Assembly (NCBI GenBank): GCA_021813435.1
Contig: JAKAKR010000005.1
Span: 1 to 54,953, forward strand
Origin: Nanobdellota archaeon
GTDB taxonomy: Archaea > Nanobdellota > Nanobdellia > Woesearchaeales > UBA9642
DNA: 54,953 bases
Reading direction: 5' to 3'
Shown here: in pieces, positions 2,406 to 34,986 of the stretch
Numbering within the stretch: the stretch's first letter is position 1
Layout: every line of letters begins with the position of its first letter
Notes under the pieces: generated by a model
What the model was told of the DNA's origin: nothing
Database searches by the model: none
What the model saw: only the letters and a program-made list of their open reading frames with translations
Made by a program: the position numbers and the translations under genes

Positions 2406-2542
2406 CAAAGTCAAGTTGTGTGACTTCGCCACATTAATTCGCGCTCACATCGTGTATAGACATTTATGTTGTGCCGAGTTGTATCTTATCGCTTAGTGTA
2501 TCTTTGGTTAGTCAGACAGCATTAACACCTAACTTGACTTTG
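2406..2542 (-). repeat. Element A: degraded member of the WGYGARC hairpin family
   Basis: Perfect 12-bp inverted repeats CAAAGTCAAGTT (2406-2417) and AACTTGACTTTG (2531-2542) bound a 137-bp element between the divergent gpsA and SDR genes. Inside, on the minus strand, are TAAGCGAT and GATGTGAGC, the end motifs of the element family described at 26269, 28862 and 34298, but they are only about 54 nt apart and lack an abutting stem. The outer arms share AAAGTCAA with the outer arms of element B (26252-26387), which supports common descent. The right arm is followed by a run of six T. Membership is weaker than for B, C and D. Confidence 0.45.
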
Positions 2543-6835: not shown

Positions 6836-7696
6836 TCAGTGTTTATCCTCGCATTTCAAGGCATAGATATCTGCATAGAGTGAGTTGAGTATGCGCATAC
6901 TATTGTGGACATGCATGTGGGATACATTCTTTGCTTCGGCAAGTATCTTGCGCTTAAGAAGGTACGTCCTGTTCTGGCCATAAGAATATTTCTGCGGGTT
7001 AAAGGCGTAGAATAATTCGTATGCTGTCCTGAGCAGCGTATGCAGTTCTTTGATATAGATGGACTCTTTCTTGTAACGCGCAGGACCCAGCAGCCATACC
7101 AATTCATCCTTCAGCTTCTCGATCCGGTCAAGCATCATAAAAAATAATGGCGTATTGGCGTACTCCACATGACCGCGTTTTATGATGATGCGCTGACAAT
7201 AATTCACGAGTCTTGTGATATTGCGATTCAGTACGTCCATCTCTGCAGTCGCGGTCGCTTCAAAAAATTCCAGGAGCAGCAGGAATACGCGCCTCAACAC
7301 GGTATTGAACTCATCTGATGAATCCTTGGTGATATCCTTGATGATAATATACTCTTTCTTCTGCTCAATAATCTCAAACCCGATCAAGTGCCGCTCCATG
7401 ATCTGCGCGATATTTGTTATGGATTGCGGTGTCCGAATAAATATTTTGAGTTCATCAAAGCCTTTGCGATAATATACCTGCAAAATTTTGACAAGAACAT
7501 CAGGATAGTCTTTCTCATCAATGATCGCGCGCTGTAATTCCTGCTTTGGGGAGGAGATGATGATGCGGTCTGCAACGATAGTAAGGTCAACCTGTCTAGT
7601 CTTGTCGAGTTTTTGGTCCTTGATCCATTCGATAGGCAGTGTTACGGTGTACGATTTCCGATTCTTCGGGCCCTGCGTGGTGAGTTTCTTGTCCAT
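6836..7696 (-). CDS. AbrB/PhoU-domain regulator (phosphate uptake regulator-like)
   Basis: The 286-residue protein starts with a SpoVT/AbrB-type swapped-hairpin domain (residues ~1-50: KKLTTQGPKNRKSYTVTLP then VDLTIVADRIIIS). A long helical region with PhoU-like repeats follows (~110-280). This AbrB-PhoU combination is common in archaea and is usually annotated as a phosphate-uptake regulator, with the AbrB part binding DNA or mediating dimerisation. No pst transport genes are nearby, so the phosphate link is inference from the family. It is transcribed divergently from the HD hydrolase gene at 7803 across a 106-bp gap that holds TATA-like sequences for both directions. Confidence 0.8.
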   Translation of the reverse strand: MDKKLTTQGPKNRKSYTVTLPIEWIKDQKLDKTRQVDLTIVADRIIISSPKQELQRAIIDEKDYPDVLVKILQVYYRKGFDELKIFIRTPQSITNIAQIMERHLIGFEIIEQKKEYIIIKDITKDSSDEFNTVLRRVFLLLLEFFEATATAEMDVLNRNITRLVNYCQRIIIKRGHVEYANTPLFFMMLDRIEKLKDELVWLLGPARYKKESIYIKELHTLLRTAYELFYAFNPQKYSYGQNRTYLLKRKILAEAKNVSHMHVHNSMRILNSLYADIYALKCEDKH

Positions 7697-7802
7697 AATC
7701 CCTCTTTGGATGCGTGTATTTAAAAATATTGTTATAATCTATACTAATACAAGTAAAATGTTATAGTGAAAACTATAAATAATAAGATGCCGTACATATA
7801 GT

Positions 7803-8618
7803 ATGATACCAACAACAACACCCAATATCCAAAAGAGTTTAGTATATGTCCAGGAATGGGAAGAGTCAGAACTGGGCTGGGGCCAGCGAGCCGACGGATA
7901 TTCACTCCACCGATACCATGCAGATATCGCGCAATTTGTCCACGAATATTGGAGCCGCATGCCTGATAGAACGCCTGAGGAGTATTCACGACCCTGTGGA
8001 TCGCCATTCACCGGATATATCACGACTGCACACTATGAAAAATTCTTCCAAGAGCAGACCAAAGGAGTAAGACTCTGCTCTAGAGATTACAGCGCATTGA
8101 TACTCGAACTTGCAGAGCATTATGCAACTGAATACCACAAAGGACAGATCAGATGCAAAACTGCTGAACCGTTCATCACCCACCCGCAAACTGTCGTAAA
8201 TCTGCTGAAAGAGTATGGATACGAAGATCCTGCGACCAAATGCATTGCCTGGCTGCATGACACTGTCGAAGACACGAATCTTACAATCGACGAGATCACT
8301 GAAGTGTTCGGGAAAGGCATTGCAGAAGGCGTCCATTTACTCACGCGCGACGTCCCCCGGGACGCGTACAACAAACGGATTTTAGCAGCGCCAAGGGACA
8401 TTCAAGTCATCAAGCTCTGCGACATCATCCATAATAGCATGACACTTGAGGTATACACCCCGGAATTTGCACTGGAGAAGATTACTGAGTATAAAAAAGT
8501 CTATGTCCCGCTCGCAAAAAGTATCAATGCTGACATCGCAAATAGACTGCTGGAAAACATGAACAATTATCTGAGTTTGCAGATGCAGCCTGCTGAAAAA
8601 AAGGCAGTAGAACAATAA
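7803..8618 (+). CDS. RelA/SpoT-type HD hydrolase (MESH1-like)
   Basis: The 271-residue protein carries the HD domain of RelA/SpoT enzymes. It shows HKGQIR (H112), HP (H126-P127 region), the metal-binding H152-D153 in WLHDTVEDTNLT, FG.GIAEGVHLLT, and D207 in VIKLCDIIHNS. These match the Mn-binding residues of (p)ppGpp hydrolases. There is no synthetase, TGS or ACT domain, so it resembles the stand-alone MESH1 type. The first ~90 residues are unusual, rich in tryptophan and tyrosine. Archaea rarely have (p)ppGpp metabolism, so the substrate may be another nucleotide. The start follows a TATA-like segment by about 25 nt, consistent with a leaderless mRNA. Confidence 0.8.
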   Translation: MIPTTTPNIQKSLVYVQEWEESELGWGQRADGYSLHRYHADIAQFVHEYWSRMPDRTPEEYSRPCGSPFTGYITTAHYEKFFQEQTKGVRLCSRDYSALILELAEHYATEYHKGQIRCKTAEPFITHPQTVVNLLKEYGYEDPATKCIAWLHDTVEDTNLTIDEITEVFGKGIAEGVHLLTRDVPRDAYNKRILAAPRDIQVIKLCDIIHNSMTLEVYTPEFALEKITEYKKVYVPLAKSINADIANRLLENMNNYLSLQMQPAEKKAVEQ

Positions 8619-8633
8619 TTGCGCAAGAGATGA

Positions 8634-9059
8634 TCAACGATCCATCTTCTTGATTCGCCGCGTATAGCGTGCGAGCCCTGAGAATTTTGTGGTGAAGAAT
8701 TTTCTGACAAGTTTTTGCGCAAGGACTGGTTTTGTGAATTCCCCGCTGAGGACAATGACATTGGCATCAGTATGATAGCGTGCCCATTCGGCATCCTTGA
8801 GCGTGTGGCAGAGTGTTGCGCGAATGCCCTTGTGGCGGTTTGCGGCAATATCCATACCGAACCCTGATCCGCAGATAAGAATCCCGGGTTTCTTCTCCTT
8901 AAGAACATATGTGACTAATCGTTTAGCATAATCAACCTCATCGACCAGTTTTGCATCATCAAATGTCCCAAGGTCAATCAAGGGGAATTTTCCTTTCAAT
9001 TCTTCCTTGAGCATAAATCCGCGATGATCGCTTGCGATAAATCCAAGGATATGCTTCAA
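8634..9059 (-). CDS. rpiB: Ribose-5-phosphate isomerase B
   Basis: The 141-residue protein matches the RpiB/LacAB family. It has IASDHRGFMLKEEL (8-21), DYAKRLV, the active-site ILICGSGFGMDIAANRHKGIRATL and HTDANVIVLSG. It interconverts ribose 5-phosphate and ribulose 5-phosphate. Archaea usually have RpiA, so RpiB here is bacterial-like. The start codon is TTG at 9059, supported by an AGGTGAT Shine-Dalgarno 4 nt before it. With transketolase and ribulose-phosphate 3-epimerase in the same 7 kb, it supplies the pentose branch of the non-oxidative pentose phosphate pathway. Confidence 0.92.
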   Translation of the reverse strand: MKHILGFIASDHRGFMLKEELKGKFPLIDLGTFDDAKLVDEVDYAKRLVTYVLKEKKPGILICGSGFGMDIAANRHKGIRATLCHTLKDAEWARYHTDANVIVLSGEFTKPVLAQKLVRKFFTTKFSGLARYTRRIKKMDR

Positions 9060-11677: not shown

Positions 11678-12778
11678 ATGGATGAAGATAACGTTTCTGC
11701 GCATGAAGAAGCACAGAAAAAAAAGCATACTGTTCACAAGAAACCAGAGCATAAAGAGAGTAACAAGATCCCGAGCGAGAAGAAATCCGGCGGGAACGCA
11801 ACTGCATGGACTCTCGGAAGCATCGCAGTCCTTCTTGCAATATTACTGGTGGTCTCATTATTCACCCACGGATTTGCGGGAACAAATGGACAGACAAAAA
11901 AGACACTTACTCCTGATGAGGTCAAGGCAAAGGCTATCAGTACAGTCCAGGGACTTGTCCAGGGCCAGACCGTCACGGTGACTTCGGTTGTTGACGCAGG
12001 AGATGTCTATGCGATCGCGCTTGAAGTCGGCGGTCAAAAATACAATTCCTATGCAACAAAGGATGGAACATTATTGTTCCCCAGCAGCGTTGATATGAGC
12101 GGCACTGCAAAGCCTGCTGCAACGCAGACTGCAACTCCACCACAGCCAACAAGTGTCCCAAAGACTGATAAGCCTACGGTTGAACTCTTTGTCATGAGCT
12201 ACTGCCCCTATGGAACACAGGCAGAGAAAGGAATACTTCCTGCAGTCCGAACACTTGGCGACAAGATCGATTTCAAGGTACGATTCGTCTACTATGCAAT
12301 GCATGGAGAAAAAGAAGTCTACGAGAACCTTGCACAATACTGCATCCAAAAAGAGCAGCCGCAGGTTTATGATAAGTATCTTGCATGCTTCCTTAATGCA
12401 AGCGATGAGGCAGGATGCCTTGTCCAGGCAGGAGTTGATACGGCAAAGCTTAATACATGCAAGACTGCTGCAGACGCAGAGTTCAATGTGACCAAGAACT
12501 GGAATGATAAGTCAAGCTGGCTTTCTGGACAGTTCCCCATCATGAACTTTGACTATGCACTCAACCAGAAGTATGGCGTGCAGGGCAGCCCGACACTGGT
12601 CATCAACGGCGCCCAATCAAACGCAGGCAGAGACTCTGCAAGCTTCCTTGCAGGAATATGCGCAGCATTCAACACGCCGCCCGCAGAGTGTAATACGCAG
12701 CTCTCATCCACAAGTCCCGGTCCGGGATTCGGATATGATAGCACAAGCGCTGCAACTGCCGCAGGATGCGGAGTATAA
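11678..12778 (+). CDS. Membrane-anchored thioredoxin-fold (DsbA/GILT-like) protein with CPYG site
   Basis: The 366-residue protein has a short cytoplasmic N-terminus, one transmembrane helix (~44-66), a small domain (~78-137) with GGQKYNSYATKDG, a Pro/Thr linker, and a thioredoxin-like domain (~165-335). The active-site position reads SYCPYGTQ (C176) where CxxC would be expected, so only one cysteine is present there. A cis-proline loop GVQGSPTLVING follows. Further cysteines (QYC, LAC, AGC, NTC, GIC, AEC and the C-terminal GCGV) are shared with the paralogue at 12924. A role in extracytoplasmic disulfide chemistry is likely but redox activity is unproven. GGTGAT precedes the start. Confidence 0.8.
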   Translation: MDEDNVSAHEEAQKKKHTVHKKPEHKESNKIPSEKKSGGNATAWTLGSIAVLLAILLVVSLFTHGFAGTNGQTKKTLTPDEVKAKAISTVQGLVQGQTVTVTSVVDAGDVYAIALEVGGQKYNSYATKDGTLLFPSSVDMSGTAKPAATQTATPPQPTSVPKTDKPTVELFVMSYCPYGTQAEKGILPAVRTLGDKIDFKVRFVYYAMHGEKEVYENLAQYCIQKEQPQVYDKYLACFLNASDEAGCLVQAGVDTAKLNTCKTAADAEFNVTKNWNDKSSWLSGQFPIMNFDYALNQKYGVQGSPTLVINGAQSNAGRDSASFLAGICAAFNTPPAECNTQLSSTSPGPGFGYDSTSAATAAGCGV

Positions 12779-12923
12779 AGCAGTACTGCGATTAAGGGTT
12801 TGCAATAATTTTTTTACTATTTTTTATTTTCATTATATTTTCATTATTGACTGCGTCTAGTGCAGTCTATTCATCGCGCAGTATCATCAGCGATAATCAT
12901 TATCTATTGTTGTAGGGGGGATC

Positions 12924-14600
12924 ATGGTTCGTCATTTACATACCGAGTATCTTGAGCATAAACAGCACCTCAAAAAACAGAAGGCAAGAATCATCGCGTG
13001 GATCAGCGGAGTCCTTGCAGTGCTGTTTGCAATCTTATTCCTGCTCTCTCTTACCACAACAATTTTTACGCACGCACCAAACGGCAATATCATTTCTGCA
13101 AGTACCGCGCGAAATATCGCGCAGGACAGGATTGCGCAGCTTGCCGCAAACCAGACAGTATATGTGACAGGGGTCAGTGACGAGGGATTTGCGTATGCCA
13201 TCAATGTCAATGTCGGCGGGCAGGATTATCTCTCCTATGTCTCTAAGGATGGACGATTCTTGTTTCCCTCAGGGATTGCACTCGATTCATCAAGCACTGC
13301 AGCAACTACCCCACAGAATACAGTATCACAGCCTATGACAAAGACCGATAAGCCTACTGTTGAACTTTTTGCAATGGCCTATAGCCCTTATCTTCTCCAG
13401 ATCGAGAAGGGATTGTTCCCTGTCCTTGACGCACTCAATACTACCATTGATTTTAAGATACGATTCGTCTATTTCTCCATGTTCGGGGAAAAAGAGATCA
13501 AGGAAGAGTTGAACCAGTACTGCATCCAGAAGAATGAGCCGCAAAAATTCGTTTCTTATCTCAAATGCTTTGTTGCAGACGGTGACGGCACTGCATGCAT
13601 TGCGCAGGCAAATATCAACACCGCACTGCTCACGACATGCGTCAACCAGACTGATGAGTATTATAGTGTGAGCAAGAGTTTCTCTGACAAGAGCAAATGG
13701 ATCAATATTTCAGGGGTCTCAGATTCTGTTGCAGTATTCCCTGTTGATCTTGATGCGAACAAGAAGTATGGTGTGCAGGGCAGTCCTATACTTTTCGTGA
13801 ATGGAGCATTTGCTGATACGCAAAAACAGCGCGATTCTGCGTCACTACTCCAAAAGATTTGCGACGGATTCAAAACGCCTCCTGCAGCATGCAAGAAGAT
13901 CCTCAGTTCAGCCCAACCCAGTGTAGGGTTCATCAACCAGCCGCAACAACAGGCAGATACCTCGGCACCTGCAAGCATTCCCAAGACTGGTAAGCCTGCT
14001 GTCGATTTATTTGTCATGAGCTACTGCCCATTCGGAACCCAGGCAGAGAAAGGAATACTCCCTGTTGTAAGGACACTAGGAGACAAGATCGATTTCAAGG
14101 TACGATTCGTCTACTATGCAATGCATGGAGAAAAAGAAGTCTACGAGAACCTTGCACAATACTGCATCCAAAAAGAGCAACCGGACAAATACCTCAAATA
14201 TCTTGCATGTTTCCTCAATGCGAGCAATGAATCTGACTGCCTTAATGTTGCAGGAGTTGATACGGCAAAGCTCGATGCATGCAAGACTGCAAGCGATTCG
14301 ACATTTGATGTGACCAAGAACTGGAATGACAAGAGTTCATGGAACAATGGCCAATTCCCGCTCTTCAACACTGATTCAGCACTCAACCAGAAATTTGGCG
14401 TGCAGGGAAGTCCGACACTGGTCATCAACGGCGCCCAATCAAACGCAGGCAGGGACTCTGCAAGCTTCCTTGCAGGAATATGCGCAGCATTCAACACGCC
14501 GCCCGCCGAATGCAACACAAATCTTTCCAGCACCCCGCCCGGAGCAGGATTCGGGTATGATTCTGTCGGCGCAGCAACTGCCGCAGGATGCGGAGTATAA
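12924..14600 (+). CDS. Membrane-anchored protein with two tandem thioredoxin-fold domains, first one lacking the active-site cysteine
   Basis: This 558-residue paralogue of the preceding gene has the same N-terminal anchor (~24-46) and GGQDYLSYVSKDG domain, then two thioredoxin-like domains. Domain 1 (~145-335) reads AYSPYLLQ at the active site, with S154 in place of cysteine. Domain 2 (~357-545) reads SYCPFGTQ (C368) and is nearly identical to the single domain of the upstream protein, including the GCGV end. Domain 1 keeps the QYC, KC, AC, TC, IC and AC cysteines and a GVQGSPILFVNG loop. It looks like an internal duplication whose first copy has become non-catalytic. A GGGGGGATC ribosome site precedes ATG 12924. 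Confidence 0.8.
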   Translation: MVRHLHTEYLEHKQHLKKQKARIIAWISGVLAVLFAILFLLSLTTTIFTHAPNGNIISASTARNIAQDRIAQLAANQTVYVTGVSDEGFAYAINVNVGGQDYLSYVSKDGRFLFPSGIALDSSSTAATTPQNTVSQPMTKTDKPTVELFAMAYSPYLLQIEKGLFPVLDALNTTIDFKIRFVYFSMFGEKEIKEELNQYCIQKNEPQKFVSYLKCFVADGDGTACIAQANINTALLTTCVNQTDEYYSVSKSFSDKSKWINISGVSDSVAVFPVDLDANKKYGVQGSPILFVNGAFADTQKQRDSASLLQKICDGFKTPPAACKKILSSAQPSVGFINQPQQQADTSAPASIPKTGKPAVDLFVMSYCPFGTQAEKGILPVVRTLGDKIDFKVRFVYYAMHGEKEVYENLAQYCIQKEQPDKYLKYLACFLNASNESDCLNVAGVDTAKLDACKTASDSTFDVTKNWNDKSSWNNGQFPLFNTDSALNQKFGVQGSPTLVINGAQSNAGRDSASFLAGICAAFNTPPAECNTNLSSTPPGAGFGYDSVGAATAAGCGV

Positions 14601-14629
14601 ACACTGTAGAAAGAAGAAACAAAAAGAGA

Positions 14630-26251: not shown

Positions 26252-26387
26252 AAAGTCAACTGATGCAGAAAAGTTATCGCCTAGCGAACTTTAGATAACA
26301 TATGTGGCGAGCAATAGCCCGAGGAATATAGCGAGAATAATAACAGTGTGAGCGCGATAACTTTTGTTAGCATACGCAACTGACTTT
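26252..26387 (+). repeat. Element B: WGYGARC hairpin element with 73-nt core
   Basis: The core stem is a perfect 12 bp: AAAAGTTATCGC (26269-26280) with GCGATAACTTTT (26354-26365). It encloses exactly 73 nt that begin CTAGCGAACTTT and end AACAGTGTGAGC. The heptamers AGCGAAC and TGTGAGC (WGYGARC) lie in direct orientation just inside the two arms. Outside, ATGC/GCAT and AAAGTCA/TGACTTT (26252-26258 and 26381-26387) extend the pairing. It fills the space between the secreted-protein gene and the small membrane-protein gene. Elements C and D have the same core length and end motifs but different stems. Confidence 0.7.
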
Positions 26388-26726: not shown

Positions 26727-26828
26727 GACGGCCGTGATGTAGCCTGGCAGCATAGAGGACTGTGGATGGCATTGATAAAATGCCTGAGCAGCAATCCTTT
26801 TGGGTGGGTTCAAATCCCACCGGTCGTC
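26727..26828 (+). tRNA. tRNA-His (GTG) with 28-nt intron
   Basis: The acceptor stem pairs ACGGCCG with CGGTCGT. The preceding G (26727) is an encoded G-1 facing C73 (26828), the tRNA-His identity pair. D arm ATGT/GCAT, anticodon stem GAGGA/TCCTT, T arm GTGGG-TTCAAAT-CCCAC. The loop CTGTGG gives anticodon GTG. A 28-nt intron (26766-26793) sits at the canonical 37/38 site and contains a GGCATT/AATGCC hairpin. CCA is not encoded. A degenerate second copy of the 3' end lies at 26918-26938. Confidence 0.9.
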
Positions 26829-28759: not shown

Positions 28760-28861
28760 TAAGCTATTCGCATTCTTCTAATAAACAGTATTTTCTCAAA
28801 CCGAACAATTTCCTCACTTTGCGTTGAACTATTTCATCTATACGGCTCTGTGGAATTTCTT

Positions 28862-28952
28862 AAGTGCCACGCTCACATAGTTTGTGGTAAATTCATTGTG
28901 TTGCGAGATATTTGTGATAGACCATTCAACAAAGGTTCGCTGGGTGGCACTT
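28862..28952 (-). repeat. Element C: WGYGARC hairpin element with 73-nt core
   Basis: Read on the minus strand, AAGTGCCAC (28944-28952) and GTGGCACTT (28862-28870) form a perfect 9-bp stem. The 73-nt core (28871-28943) begins CCAGCGAACCTT and ends AAACTATGTGAGC. An outer partial stem (GGCTCTGT with ACAGAACC) and a flanking 7-bp direct repeat CTATACG (28838-28844 and 28969-28975) surround it. On the plus strand a T-run follows. It occupies most of the 326-bp gap before the uS13 operon promoter; apart from it and that promoter the gap holds nothing recognised. Confidence 0.7.
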
Positions 28953-28977
28953 TTTTACAGAACCTCGCCTATACGAA

Positions 28978-31342: not shown

Positions 31343-31468
31343 GCGAGGGTGGCAGAGCCTGGTCAAATGCGCTAGCTTGAGGCGGCGTGGACAAATCCAC
31401 TGGGTTTGAAAATGCTTCAAACGGCTAGTTCCTTAGTGGATGCGCGTGTTCGAATCACGTCCCTCGCA
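31343..31468 (+). tRNA. tRNA-Leu (GAG) with 40-nt intron, inside the ribosomal cluster
   Basis: Acceptor GCGAGGG/CCCTCGC with discriminator A (31468). Anticodon stem CTAGC/GCTAG, loop TTGAGG gives anticodon GAG (31379-31381). A type II variable arm (TTCC...GGAT) fits leucine. T arm GCGTG-TTCGAAT-CACGT. The intron (31383-31422, 40 nt) is at the 37/38 site and can form two hairpins, GTGGA/TCCAC and GTTTGAA/TTCAAAC. The gene starts 16 bp after rpoD and precedes eL18 by ~36 bp, so it may be processed out of the operon transcript. Confidence 0.9.
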
Positions 31469-32704: not shown

Positions 32705-32818
32705 TTGTTGCTGTCAATGTGTGAACATGATAACAGCAACAATCGAGAAAAATTCACAGAATTGCAAATGGTGGATTTTTCCATAAATAACATCATCTGA
32801 TGTGAACGACAGCAACAA
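32705..32818 (+). repeat. Element E: divergent WGYGARC hairpin element
   Basis: TTGTTGCTGTC (32705-32715) and GACAGCAACAA (32808-32818) form a perfect 11-bp stem around 92 nt. TGTGAAC occurs at 32720-32726 and again at 32801-32807, where it abuts the right arm as in elements B, C and D. The left arm has a second possible partner, ACAGCAACAAT (32733-32743), which makes a competing 11-bp hairpin with 32704-32714. It lies between uS9 and rpoN. Core length and 5' motif differ from B, C and D, so membership is probable rather than certain. Confidence 0.55.
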
Positions 32819-33510: not shown

Positions 33511-34287
33511 ATGCCTGAGGAAATCGATACGAGCAATATGTCTGCTGAAGAGATTGCTGAGCTCCAAAAACAGAATTGCATCTTCTGTAAGATTGCAGAA
33601 AAACAGATCCCTGCAAAGATCATCCATGAGGATTCTGACATTATCTGCGTGCTGGATATCAACCCTGCATCCGAGGGGCACATTCTGGTCTATCCCAAAA
33701 AGCATTATATGATTCTTCCGCACATTCCTGATGATGTTCTCGGAAAACTGTTCAAGGGCGTGCAATTGATGTCAAATACTTTGCTCAAGACCGTGCAGTG
33801 CAAGGGTACGACAGTGTTTATTGCCAATGGCGCAGCTGCAGGACAGCGCGCCCCCCATGTGCTTATCCATGTCTTTCCGCGACGCGAAGGCGACGGACTT
33901 GTTGAATTACCAAAGTATGAGATGAATGAAGAGCAGATGTTAAAGTTACGGGCAAGTCTCAAGCCGTATCTTGCGCAAGTGTTTGGCGCGCCAAAAAAGA
34001 CCAATGAAAAGGTTGCAGAATTCCACGATGTCAAAGAGGAAAAGCAAGGGATTCATGTTACGCCGGATATTGCGCCTGAAGAAGAAGCAGAAGAGAAAGA
34101 AGAAGAACCAGAACAAGAAGAGACTCTTGAGTCTGCTGAGGAACCTGCACCGCAGGAAGTTAAAAAGAAGACCGCAAGAAAAAAGACTGCAGAAAGTCCT
34201 TCCCAAAAGACAATCCTGAAAGAGGAACCTCGACGACCAGCACAACAAGTGAATTTAGACGATATCGGCAAATTGTTCGGAGCATAA
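33511..34287 (+). CDS. HIT-fold protein lacking the central catalytic histidine, with charged tail
   Basis: Residues 20-160 are a HIT domain: CIFCKIAEKQIPAKIIHEDSD (23-43), NPASEGHILVYPKKHYM (51-67) and the motif region APHVLIHVFPRR. In FHIT/HINT the motif is H-x-H-x-H; here it reads H116-V-L118-I-H120, so the middle, nucleophilic histidine is leucine. A ~95-residue Glu/Lys/Pro-rich tail follows and ends in a short helix (VNLDDIGKLFGA). It is probably not a standard nucleotide hydrolase. A paralogue lies downstream at 34411. Confidence 0.82.
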   Translation: MPEEIDTSNMSAEEIAELQKQNCIFCKIAEKQIPAKIIHEDSDIICVLDINPASEGHILVYPKKHYMILPHIPDDVLGKLFKGVQLMSNTLLKTVQCKGTTVFIANGAAAGQRAPHVLIHVFPRREGDGLVELPKYEMNEEQMLKLRASLKPYLAQVFGAPKKTNEKVAEFHDVKEEKQGIHVTPDIAPEEEAEEKEEEPEQEETLESAEEPAPQEVKKKTARKKTAESPSQKTILKEEPRRPAQQVNLDDIGKLFGA

Positions 34288-34411
34288 TACTTAAGGATGT
34301 TGCCTGCAAGCGAACCTTCGGGCAGATAAGGCGATTGCAAATGACTCGAAACACTAGCGATGAACAAAACAATGTGAGCCAGGCAACACCCCAGATCATC
34401 GGAGCATAATA
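34277..34411 (+). mobile_element. Element D flanked by 13-bp direct repeats (candidate insertion with target-site duplication)
   Basis: TCGGAGCATAATA occurs at 34277-34289 (containing the stop codon of the first HIT gene) and exactly again at 34399-34411 (ending in the A of the next ATG). Between them lies element D: perfect 9-bp stem TGTTGCCTG (34298-34306) / CAGGCAACA (34380-34388) and a 73-nt core from CAAGCGAACCTT to AACAATGTGAGC. The layout is that of a small non-autonomous mobile element with a target-site duplication. No transposase is encoded in it. Confidence 0.55.
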
Positions 34412-34986
34412 TGAGTTGCGAGATTTGTGAAAACAAATTTGAGAAGAATCTCATCTACGAGAACGACAAGATCAAGATATGTCTTGCACTCGAGCCTGCA
34501 ACTAGCGGGCACATCCAATTATTTTCTCAGGAACATTATCCTATTCTTGAACAGGTACCCCTGCCGCTTCTCTCCTATATCAGTGCTGCGGCAAATAAGG
34601 TTTCCATACTCTTATTCGAGATGTTAAAAGTTCACGGCACTAATATCATCATCCAGAATGGTGTTCCTGCAGGACAGAATGTCCCGCATTTCTCAATCCA
34701 TATCATTCCACGACGCACTGATGACGGGCTGAAACTGGACTGGGACTTGAAACAGGCAGCTCCTGATGCACTAGAAAGCATACAGCGCATCATCACCGAA
34801 GGGATGAATACCTTGGAACAAAACCAACAAGTCCCCACGCCGCAACTTACCACAGAAACCGCAGAAGTGCCTGCGCCTGCCGAAGAAGAGACAACAGAAG
34901 ACAAAGAAGAAGAAAAAGAACCAGACCATCATAAAAAACAAAAAAAGAGAAATTATTATCTTGAAAGTCTGGAGCGGATACCTTAA
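34411..34986 (+). CDS. Second HIT-fold protein without central histidine, with charged tail
   Basis: The 191-residue protein is a diverged paralogue of the one at 33511. It has CEICENK (3-9), EPATSGHIQLFSQEHYPIL (28-46) and the motif VPHFSIHIIPRR, that is H93-F-S95-I-H97 with serine in the position of the catalytic histidine. A ~70-residue acidic then basic tail follows. Both paralogues have lost the same residue but keep the outer histidines, so a ligand-binding role is more likely than hydrolysis. The stop overlaps the convergent gene's stop by 4 nt. Confidence 0.75.
   Translation: MSCEICENKFEKNLIYENDKIKICLALEPATSGHIQLFSQEHYPILEQVPLPLLSYISAAANKVSILLFEMLKVHGTNIIIQNGVPAGQNVPHFSIHIIPRRTDDGLKLDWDLKQAAPDALESIQRIITEGMNTLEQNQQVPTPQLTTETAEVPAPAEEETTEDKEEEKEPDHHKKQKKRNYYLESLERIP

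Follow-up and report, generated by a model that had tools for sequence, protein, structure and literature searches.

A probable MITE-like insertion between two HIT-family genes belongs to a family of gene-less folded elements in Woesearchaeota

Element D, which lies between two adjacent HIT-family genes of a woesearchaeal archaeon, is, as judged by sequence comparison with related genomes, an insertion flanked by a 13-bp target-site duplication. It belongs to class I of a family of gene-less folded elements found in Woesearchaeota (DPANN), in which the fold covaries from copy to copy and at least one sister subfamily has moved recently. Taken together, the evidence makes it very probable that D is a MITE-like, non-autonomous DNA transposon that was inserted at the HIT1-HIT2 junction and duplicated 13 bp there. 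The window analyzed is a stretch of 54,953 nucleotides (contig JAKAKR010000005.1 of the assembly GCA_021813435.1), and the 1.41-Mb genome to which it belongs is referred to as the host genome (G000). The host is a woesearchaeote, with an EF-1A that shares 91% identity with the one from Candidatus Woesearchaeota archaeon KatS3mg002.

Element D and the HIT1-HIT2 junction

In a preliminary description of the window, a perfect 13-bp direct repeat had been reported around an element of about 109 bp with a conserved hairpin, and the repeat had been proposed to be a target-site duplication. The 13-mer TCGGAGCATAATA was indeed found exactly on both sides of D (Table 1), these being its only matches in the window when up to two mismatches were allowed, and the spacer between the two copies measures exactly 109 bp. 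The left copy contains the final sense codons and the TAA stop of HIT gene 1, and both this stop and the start of HIT gene 2 are intact after the duplication. The hairpin also proved to be real and part of a covarying family. The covariance model R1, which was built from eight copies with D among them, scored D at 85.8 bits (E 5.9e-17). When D was folded alone as RNA the result was not significant (z 0.37); the case for D therefore rests on comparison.

The comparison of related HIT-HIT loci suggested in that description was carried out by using HIT gene 2 as the query to locate the orthologous HIT pair in relatives. In the three congeners G001, G002, and G003 the pair was found without the element and with the junction sequence in a single copy, and the HIT junction was likewise element-free and single-copy in genomes from other families. 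The junction of G003 reads TTATTTGGAGGATAATATGAA, against TTGTTCGGAGCATAATA-(element)-TCGGAGCATAATATGAG in the host; its ...AAATTATTTGGAGGATAATATGAA is the homologue of AAATTGTTCGGAGCATAATATGAG, that is, of the host sequence minus the element and one copy of the repeat. HIT gene 1 of G001 and of G002 ends with a stop that overlaps or abuts the start of HIT gene 2. Since the empty sites carry a single junction copy, the 13-mer is a target-site duplication and not a conserved motif. A repeat due to chance, or to a functional motif conserved at the HIT junction, might be suspected because the 13-mer contains a stop codon and adjoins a start codon. However, the relatives carry one junction copy without any element, and exact repeats of at least 8 bp at such a spacing arise by chance in 2.6–4.7% of cases, those of 13 bp being far rarer, so that the probability left to this explanation is negligible.

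Table 1. Coordinates of element D, of the other features in the window, and of two further repeat families of the host genome
Feature	Position	Strand	Details
HIT-family gene 1	33511..34287	+	paralogous match to HIT gene 2
13-bp target-site duplication, left copy	34277..34289	+	end and TAA stop of HIT gene 1
Element D, class I, 109 bp	34290..34398	+	R1 covariance match 34298-34392
D terminal stem, 5' arm	34298..34306	+	TGTTGCCTG
D one-sided bulge, 3 nt	34307..34309	+	CAA
D tandem G.A motif, 5' half	34310..34315	+	GC-GA-AC
D tandem G.A motif, 3' half	34374..34379	+	GT-GA-GC
D terminal stem, 3' arm	34380..34388	+	CAGGCAACA
13-bp target-site duplication, right copy	34399..34411	+	last base is the A of the HIT gene 2 ATG
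HIT-family gene 2	34411..34986	+	
Element C, class I	28858..28952	-	outer stem GGTTCTGT/ACAGAGCC; CTATACG at 28838-28844 and 28969-28975
Class I element	26272..26366	+	outer inverted repeat AAAGTCA..TGACTTT
Class II element	32705..32818	+	5-nt bulge; internal hairpin loop AGAATTGCAAATG
Degenerate class I element	2431..2524	-	outer repeat AAAGTCAAGTT; E 0.04
169-bp repeat family	C1:53787, C2:25619, C7:28947, C7:125436, C9:143104		G000
150-160 bp repeat family	C6:3269, C7:117671, C9:181523, C5:886		G000

Structure of class I and class II elements

A terminal stem, a one-sided bulge, and a tandem G.A/A.G motif (YGAR opposite YGAR) are common to all elements, the bulge being of 3 nt in class I and 5 nt in class II. 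Class I elements consist, in order, of a terminal stem of about 9 bp, the 3-nt bulge on the 5' side, 2 bp, the tandem G.A/A.G, 2 bp, and a loop in which the motifs CCTT and AAATAACTCG are conserved. This structure was drawn by hand, and the same prediction was obtained independently with RNAalifold. Class II elements combine the 5-nt bulge with an inner helix, which reaches at most five pairs, and with an internal hairpin whose loop is AGGATTGCAAGTG; two long variants carry additional hairpins inside that loop. The tandem G.A of the clear copies is YGAR on both strands, a context that gives stable sheared pairs in DNA as well as in RNA. Copies that have outer inverted repeats often carry a 3' mini-hairpin (CGAR..YGAG), which was found on the right side in 17 of 88 cases and on the left side in one of 88. 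Some subfamilies have outer terminal inverted repeats together with 9–10 bp duplications; D lacks the outer inverted repeats seen in such copies, a point that counts against the transposon interpretation.

The other elements of the window are listed in Table 1. For element C, a shorter flanking repeat, CTATACG, had been noted previously. This 7-bp repeat is present, but it is weak evidence of a duplication, since scores of 7 or more were common in the control. In one class I copy of G002 (L265, C24:8721-8816) the loop and the 3' side are the same as in another copy and the 5' arm is unrelated, as if the 5' end had been exchanged.

Distribution and copy number

Class I copies were located by pattern and covariance searches. 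The host genome contains at least 24 full-length copies (E 1.5e-6 or better), and the total rises to 28 up to E 1 when four weak or partial copies are included. Among the congeners, 46 copies were found in G002 and none in G001 or G003, G001 being a 100% complete genome, and eight copies were present in G012, which belongs to another family. Class II was discovered from geometry alone. At least 13 copies of it occur in the host genome. Among 288 genomes sampled across the order it was detected in 18, and among 371 sampled across the phylum in 16, all in the same class.

The copies are about 100–170 bp long and no gene was found in any of them. Except where a few short predicted ORFs are overlapped, they lie between genes, and they show no orientation bias. 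No clear shared insertion positions were detected between G000 and G002; 12 of 43 loci had a strong match within 3 kb of an element, an overlap judged to be near chance. Several of the features by which MITEs are recognized were found in the family: non-coding sequence, a length of about 50–500 bp, multiple copies, terminal inverted repeats, and a target duplication with an empty site.

Neither GTDB contigs nor viral contigs gave a match when scanned with exact patterns, the element fold matched no Rfam family at the gathering score, and no description of the family was found in the literature. As far as the libraries searched show, the family is large and previously uncatalogued; within the same limits, elements of the MITE kind are already known, and the novelty lies in the conservation of shape over sequence and in the host group. 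MITE-like elements of this sort can constitute many insertions between genes in some DPANN genomes and be missing from others of the same genus, and the covariance models from this analysis can be used to detect members of the family.

Flanking duplications and mobility of the family

Duplications across the family were compared with a mixed-flank control, in which flanks were wrongly paired and exact repeats of at least 8 bp were counted at comparable distances. Duplications of this length were observed in 7 of 23 class I copies of the host genome (control, 2.6%), among which the 13-mer of D is the longest flanking repeat, in 5 of 7 copies of G012 (control, 4.7%), in 3 of 16 class II copies (control, 4.7%), and in only 5 of 46 copies of G002 (control, 3.4%). 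Most of the target duplications in the family are of 8–12 bp. The majority of the copies, above all those of G002, have no detectable duplication despite a near-perfect terminal stem, which is not expected of dead MITEs. Either the stems are selected in place, or many of the insertions leave no duplication, or gene conversion preserves the stems while the flanks decay.

The mobility that had been anticipated for the family was confirmed by near-identical copies at multiple sites with 10-bp duplications, by their patchy presence (0 versus 46 copies in congeners), and by the absence of clear shared positions between two congeners. One class I subfamily, 144 bp long and bounded by GGCTCCTTTCAAAA inverted repeats, is 97–100% identical at separate sites, where it is flanked by the 10-bp duplications GCACTAAGAC, CTTTGAATCC, and GATTTGCTGG. 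This near-identity across sites indicates that some subfamilies were recently mobile. Additionally, a genome-wide scan for repeats with inverted ends detected several more subfamilies and one complete IS.

Covariation of the arms

In the class I seed of eight copies, covariation was seen at seven of the 13 pairs, and in 44 copies of G002 at 12 of 13; two-sided changes were seen at 22 of the 27 class II pairs. The G002 copies were located by a model trained on the host genome only. In their alignment 95.6% of the cells pair and 159 cells show a two-sided change, a count that leans toward the structure because the alignment was fitted to the model, whereas the slid controls gave 23 or fewer. Sliding the partners thus abolished the covariation signal.

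Of 536 pairs counted in the element stems (those of class I, with some G002 copies among them, and those of class II from the host), 10 are G.T; the host tRNAs have 86 such pairs among 1003. The wobble pair is therefore about four-fold depleted in the elements, with a Fisher p of 2.7e-8 that overstates the case, as related copies are non-independent. In G002, 16 G.T pairs and 12 A.C-type mismatches were counted. RNA tolerates G.U but not A.C; as both types are about equally frequent, neither strand is preferred. These results favor the view that the arms are kept complementary as DNA, either through selection acting on a hairpin of DNA or through gene conversion between the two arms.

The same counts bear on whether the elements could be small RNA genes, with the fold selected in the transcript and transposition just spreading the genes. 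Several observations would suit such genes: covariation is strong, the bulge and the loop motifs are defined (AAATAACTCG; GATTGCAAG), the class II loop can take up extra hairpins, stems are preserved where no target duplication is visible, and element C has a TATA-like box just upstream on its strand. Nevertheless, G.T pairs would not be expected at a level so far below that of tRNA, nor A.C-type mismatches at nearly their frequency; moreover, promoter and orientation are inconsistent among the copies, the congeners have no clear shared positions and the complete one has zero copies, and a match in Rfam is absent. An RNA-gene origin is consequently regarded as unlikely.

Under the preferred interpretation of D as a MITE-like transposon, a transposase would be supplied in trans, most likely of the DDE type because the target duplications are mostly of 8–12 bp. 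This enzyme would cut out or copy the element and join it to a staggered cut. The arms could stay complementary because an extruded hairpin or cruciform that participates in mobilization is selected for or, alternatively, through arm-to-arm gene conversion during replication, and not through a function of the transcript. A tentative extension, held to be rather doubtful, is that the transposase or integrase reads the folded shape, a bulged tandem-G.A YGAR DNA hairpin, and not the sequence; the arms could then change freely, one step compensating another, without loss of the shape or of the ability to insert. DNA transposons are usually defined by their end sequence, whereas here the arms differ and compensate and the geometry of the bulge and tandem G.A is constant. 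The case therefore makes it testable whether a transposition system selects for DNA shape.

Search for the transposase

MITEs usually share their ends with an autonomous parent, and the parent is often not found. A transposase encoded elsewhere, as had been proposed from the window, is still the best inference, but the genome search for a transposase gene with the same core at its ends found none, and no copy of the element holds a gene. The host genome (assembly 96% complete) yielded no version of the core with a long insert, and the single match to an autonomous copy with a gene in the loop was read as chance. A Pfam search for the Mutator family led to an IS240-like transposase at two places, where matching ends were not noticed.

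The one complete IS detected in the host genome, on contig C8 (about 7493-8765), was also considered as the parent. It has the ends GGTGTGGGACAAAAAT, of the form GG(C/G)TGTG..AAAAT, which resemble several outer MITE ends, and a 9–10 bp duplication, and it sits precisely within the CTTATTTTA target duplicated by a class II element. Despite the similar end rule and the same target, it was rejected, as its ends are not identical, the bulged tandem-GA core is absent, and there is no co-occurrence with class II: among the 288 genomes of the order, the IS was present in 30 and class II in 18, with three shared. The IS may share its target choice with the mover of the elements or be related to it. 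Its transposase, of about 339 aa, matched nothing in Pfam or NCBIfam, and the structure prediction was poor (pLDDT 38). Relatives of this IS (C8:7320-8776) are widespread in the order, often at contig ends.

The attC sites of integrons are stems that vary in sequence but keep their shape, with extrahelical bases and an unpaired centre, and the element stems resemble them in all of these respects. The elements might accordingly be thought of as attC-like folded single-stranded recombination sites, moved by a shape-reading tyrosine recombinase, and XerC/D-like recombinases without the IntI-specific segment were found in G002, G012, G137, G146, and G147. In contrast to attC, however, the copies are dispersed and do not form arrays, and D and others have target duplications, which site-specific recombination does not leave. 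No integron integrase scored above the curated cut-off; the host gave a weak partial match and G136 none, both being carriers. This origin is thus very improbable. The tyrosine recombinases of the five genomes mentioned can be aligned with the integron integrase model but skip approximately positions 183–236 of it.

Imperfect hairpins at many intergenic places are also typical of REP/REPIN and IS200/IS605 sequences, and shape-based recognition of such hairpins is known for the Y1 class. Movement of the elements by a Y1 (HUH) transposase on single-stranded DNA would be in line with the presence of Y1 matches in five of eight genomes (G000, G002, G137, G146, and G147) and their lack in the element-free congener G001. 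Y1 insertion, however, creates no target duplication; the carriers G012 and G136 have duplicated, mobile-looking copies but no Y1 match; and the hairpins near the three Y1 genes of the host lack the bulge and tandem-GA core. The elements also differ from these sequences in their ends, and there is very little likelihood that they were moved in this way.

Comparison with known MITEs

The archaeal MITEs SM1-SM4 of Sulfolobus are short, gene-less, multi-copy, intergenic, and hairpin-forming (PMC10969869), and the woesearchaeal elements share these features as well as inverted ends and short target duplications. They differ from SM1-SM4 in that their subfamilies have the bulged tandem-GA core and internal motifs in common while the arms differ yet compensate, and in that a parent IS whose ends match theirs was not found. 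QMITE2 and other bacterial MITEs have direct repeats of 7–9 bp, long inverted ends, and a predicted stem-loop (PMC10969869), all of which recur here. Unlike QMITE2, the woesearchaeal family has an outer stem, an inner stem, and, in some subfamilies, a 3' mini-hairpin, with covariation observed across 44 copies in one genome.

Other repeats and genes nearby

Two further repeat families were detected in the host genome (Table 1). The 169-bp family is separate from the elements described above; its copies are 92–99% identical, with the ends GTTGCAGACAAAAG and a long inner stem. The other family, of about 150–160 bp, has the ends GTGTGTTCAACA and, at the C6 site, the duplication TTTCCGATA.

In the window, tRNA-like genes with intron-sized insertions were found at 31343-31468 and 26728-26828 by Rfam and were missed by ARAGORN with default settings; the match at 31343-31468 (41 bits) was obtained only in an Rfam search of a smaller region. 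Finally, at 12150-14601 of the window, a segment of about 630 bp is duplicated in two adjacent ORFs, with 82% identity.
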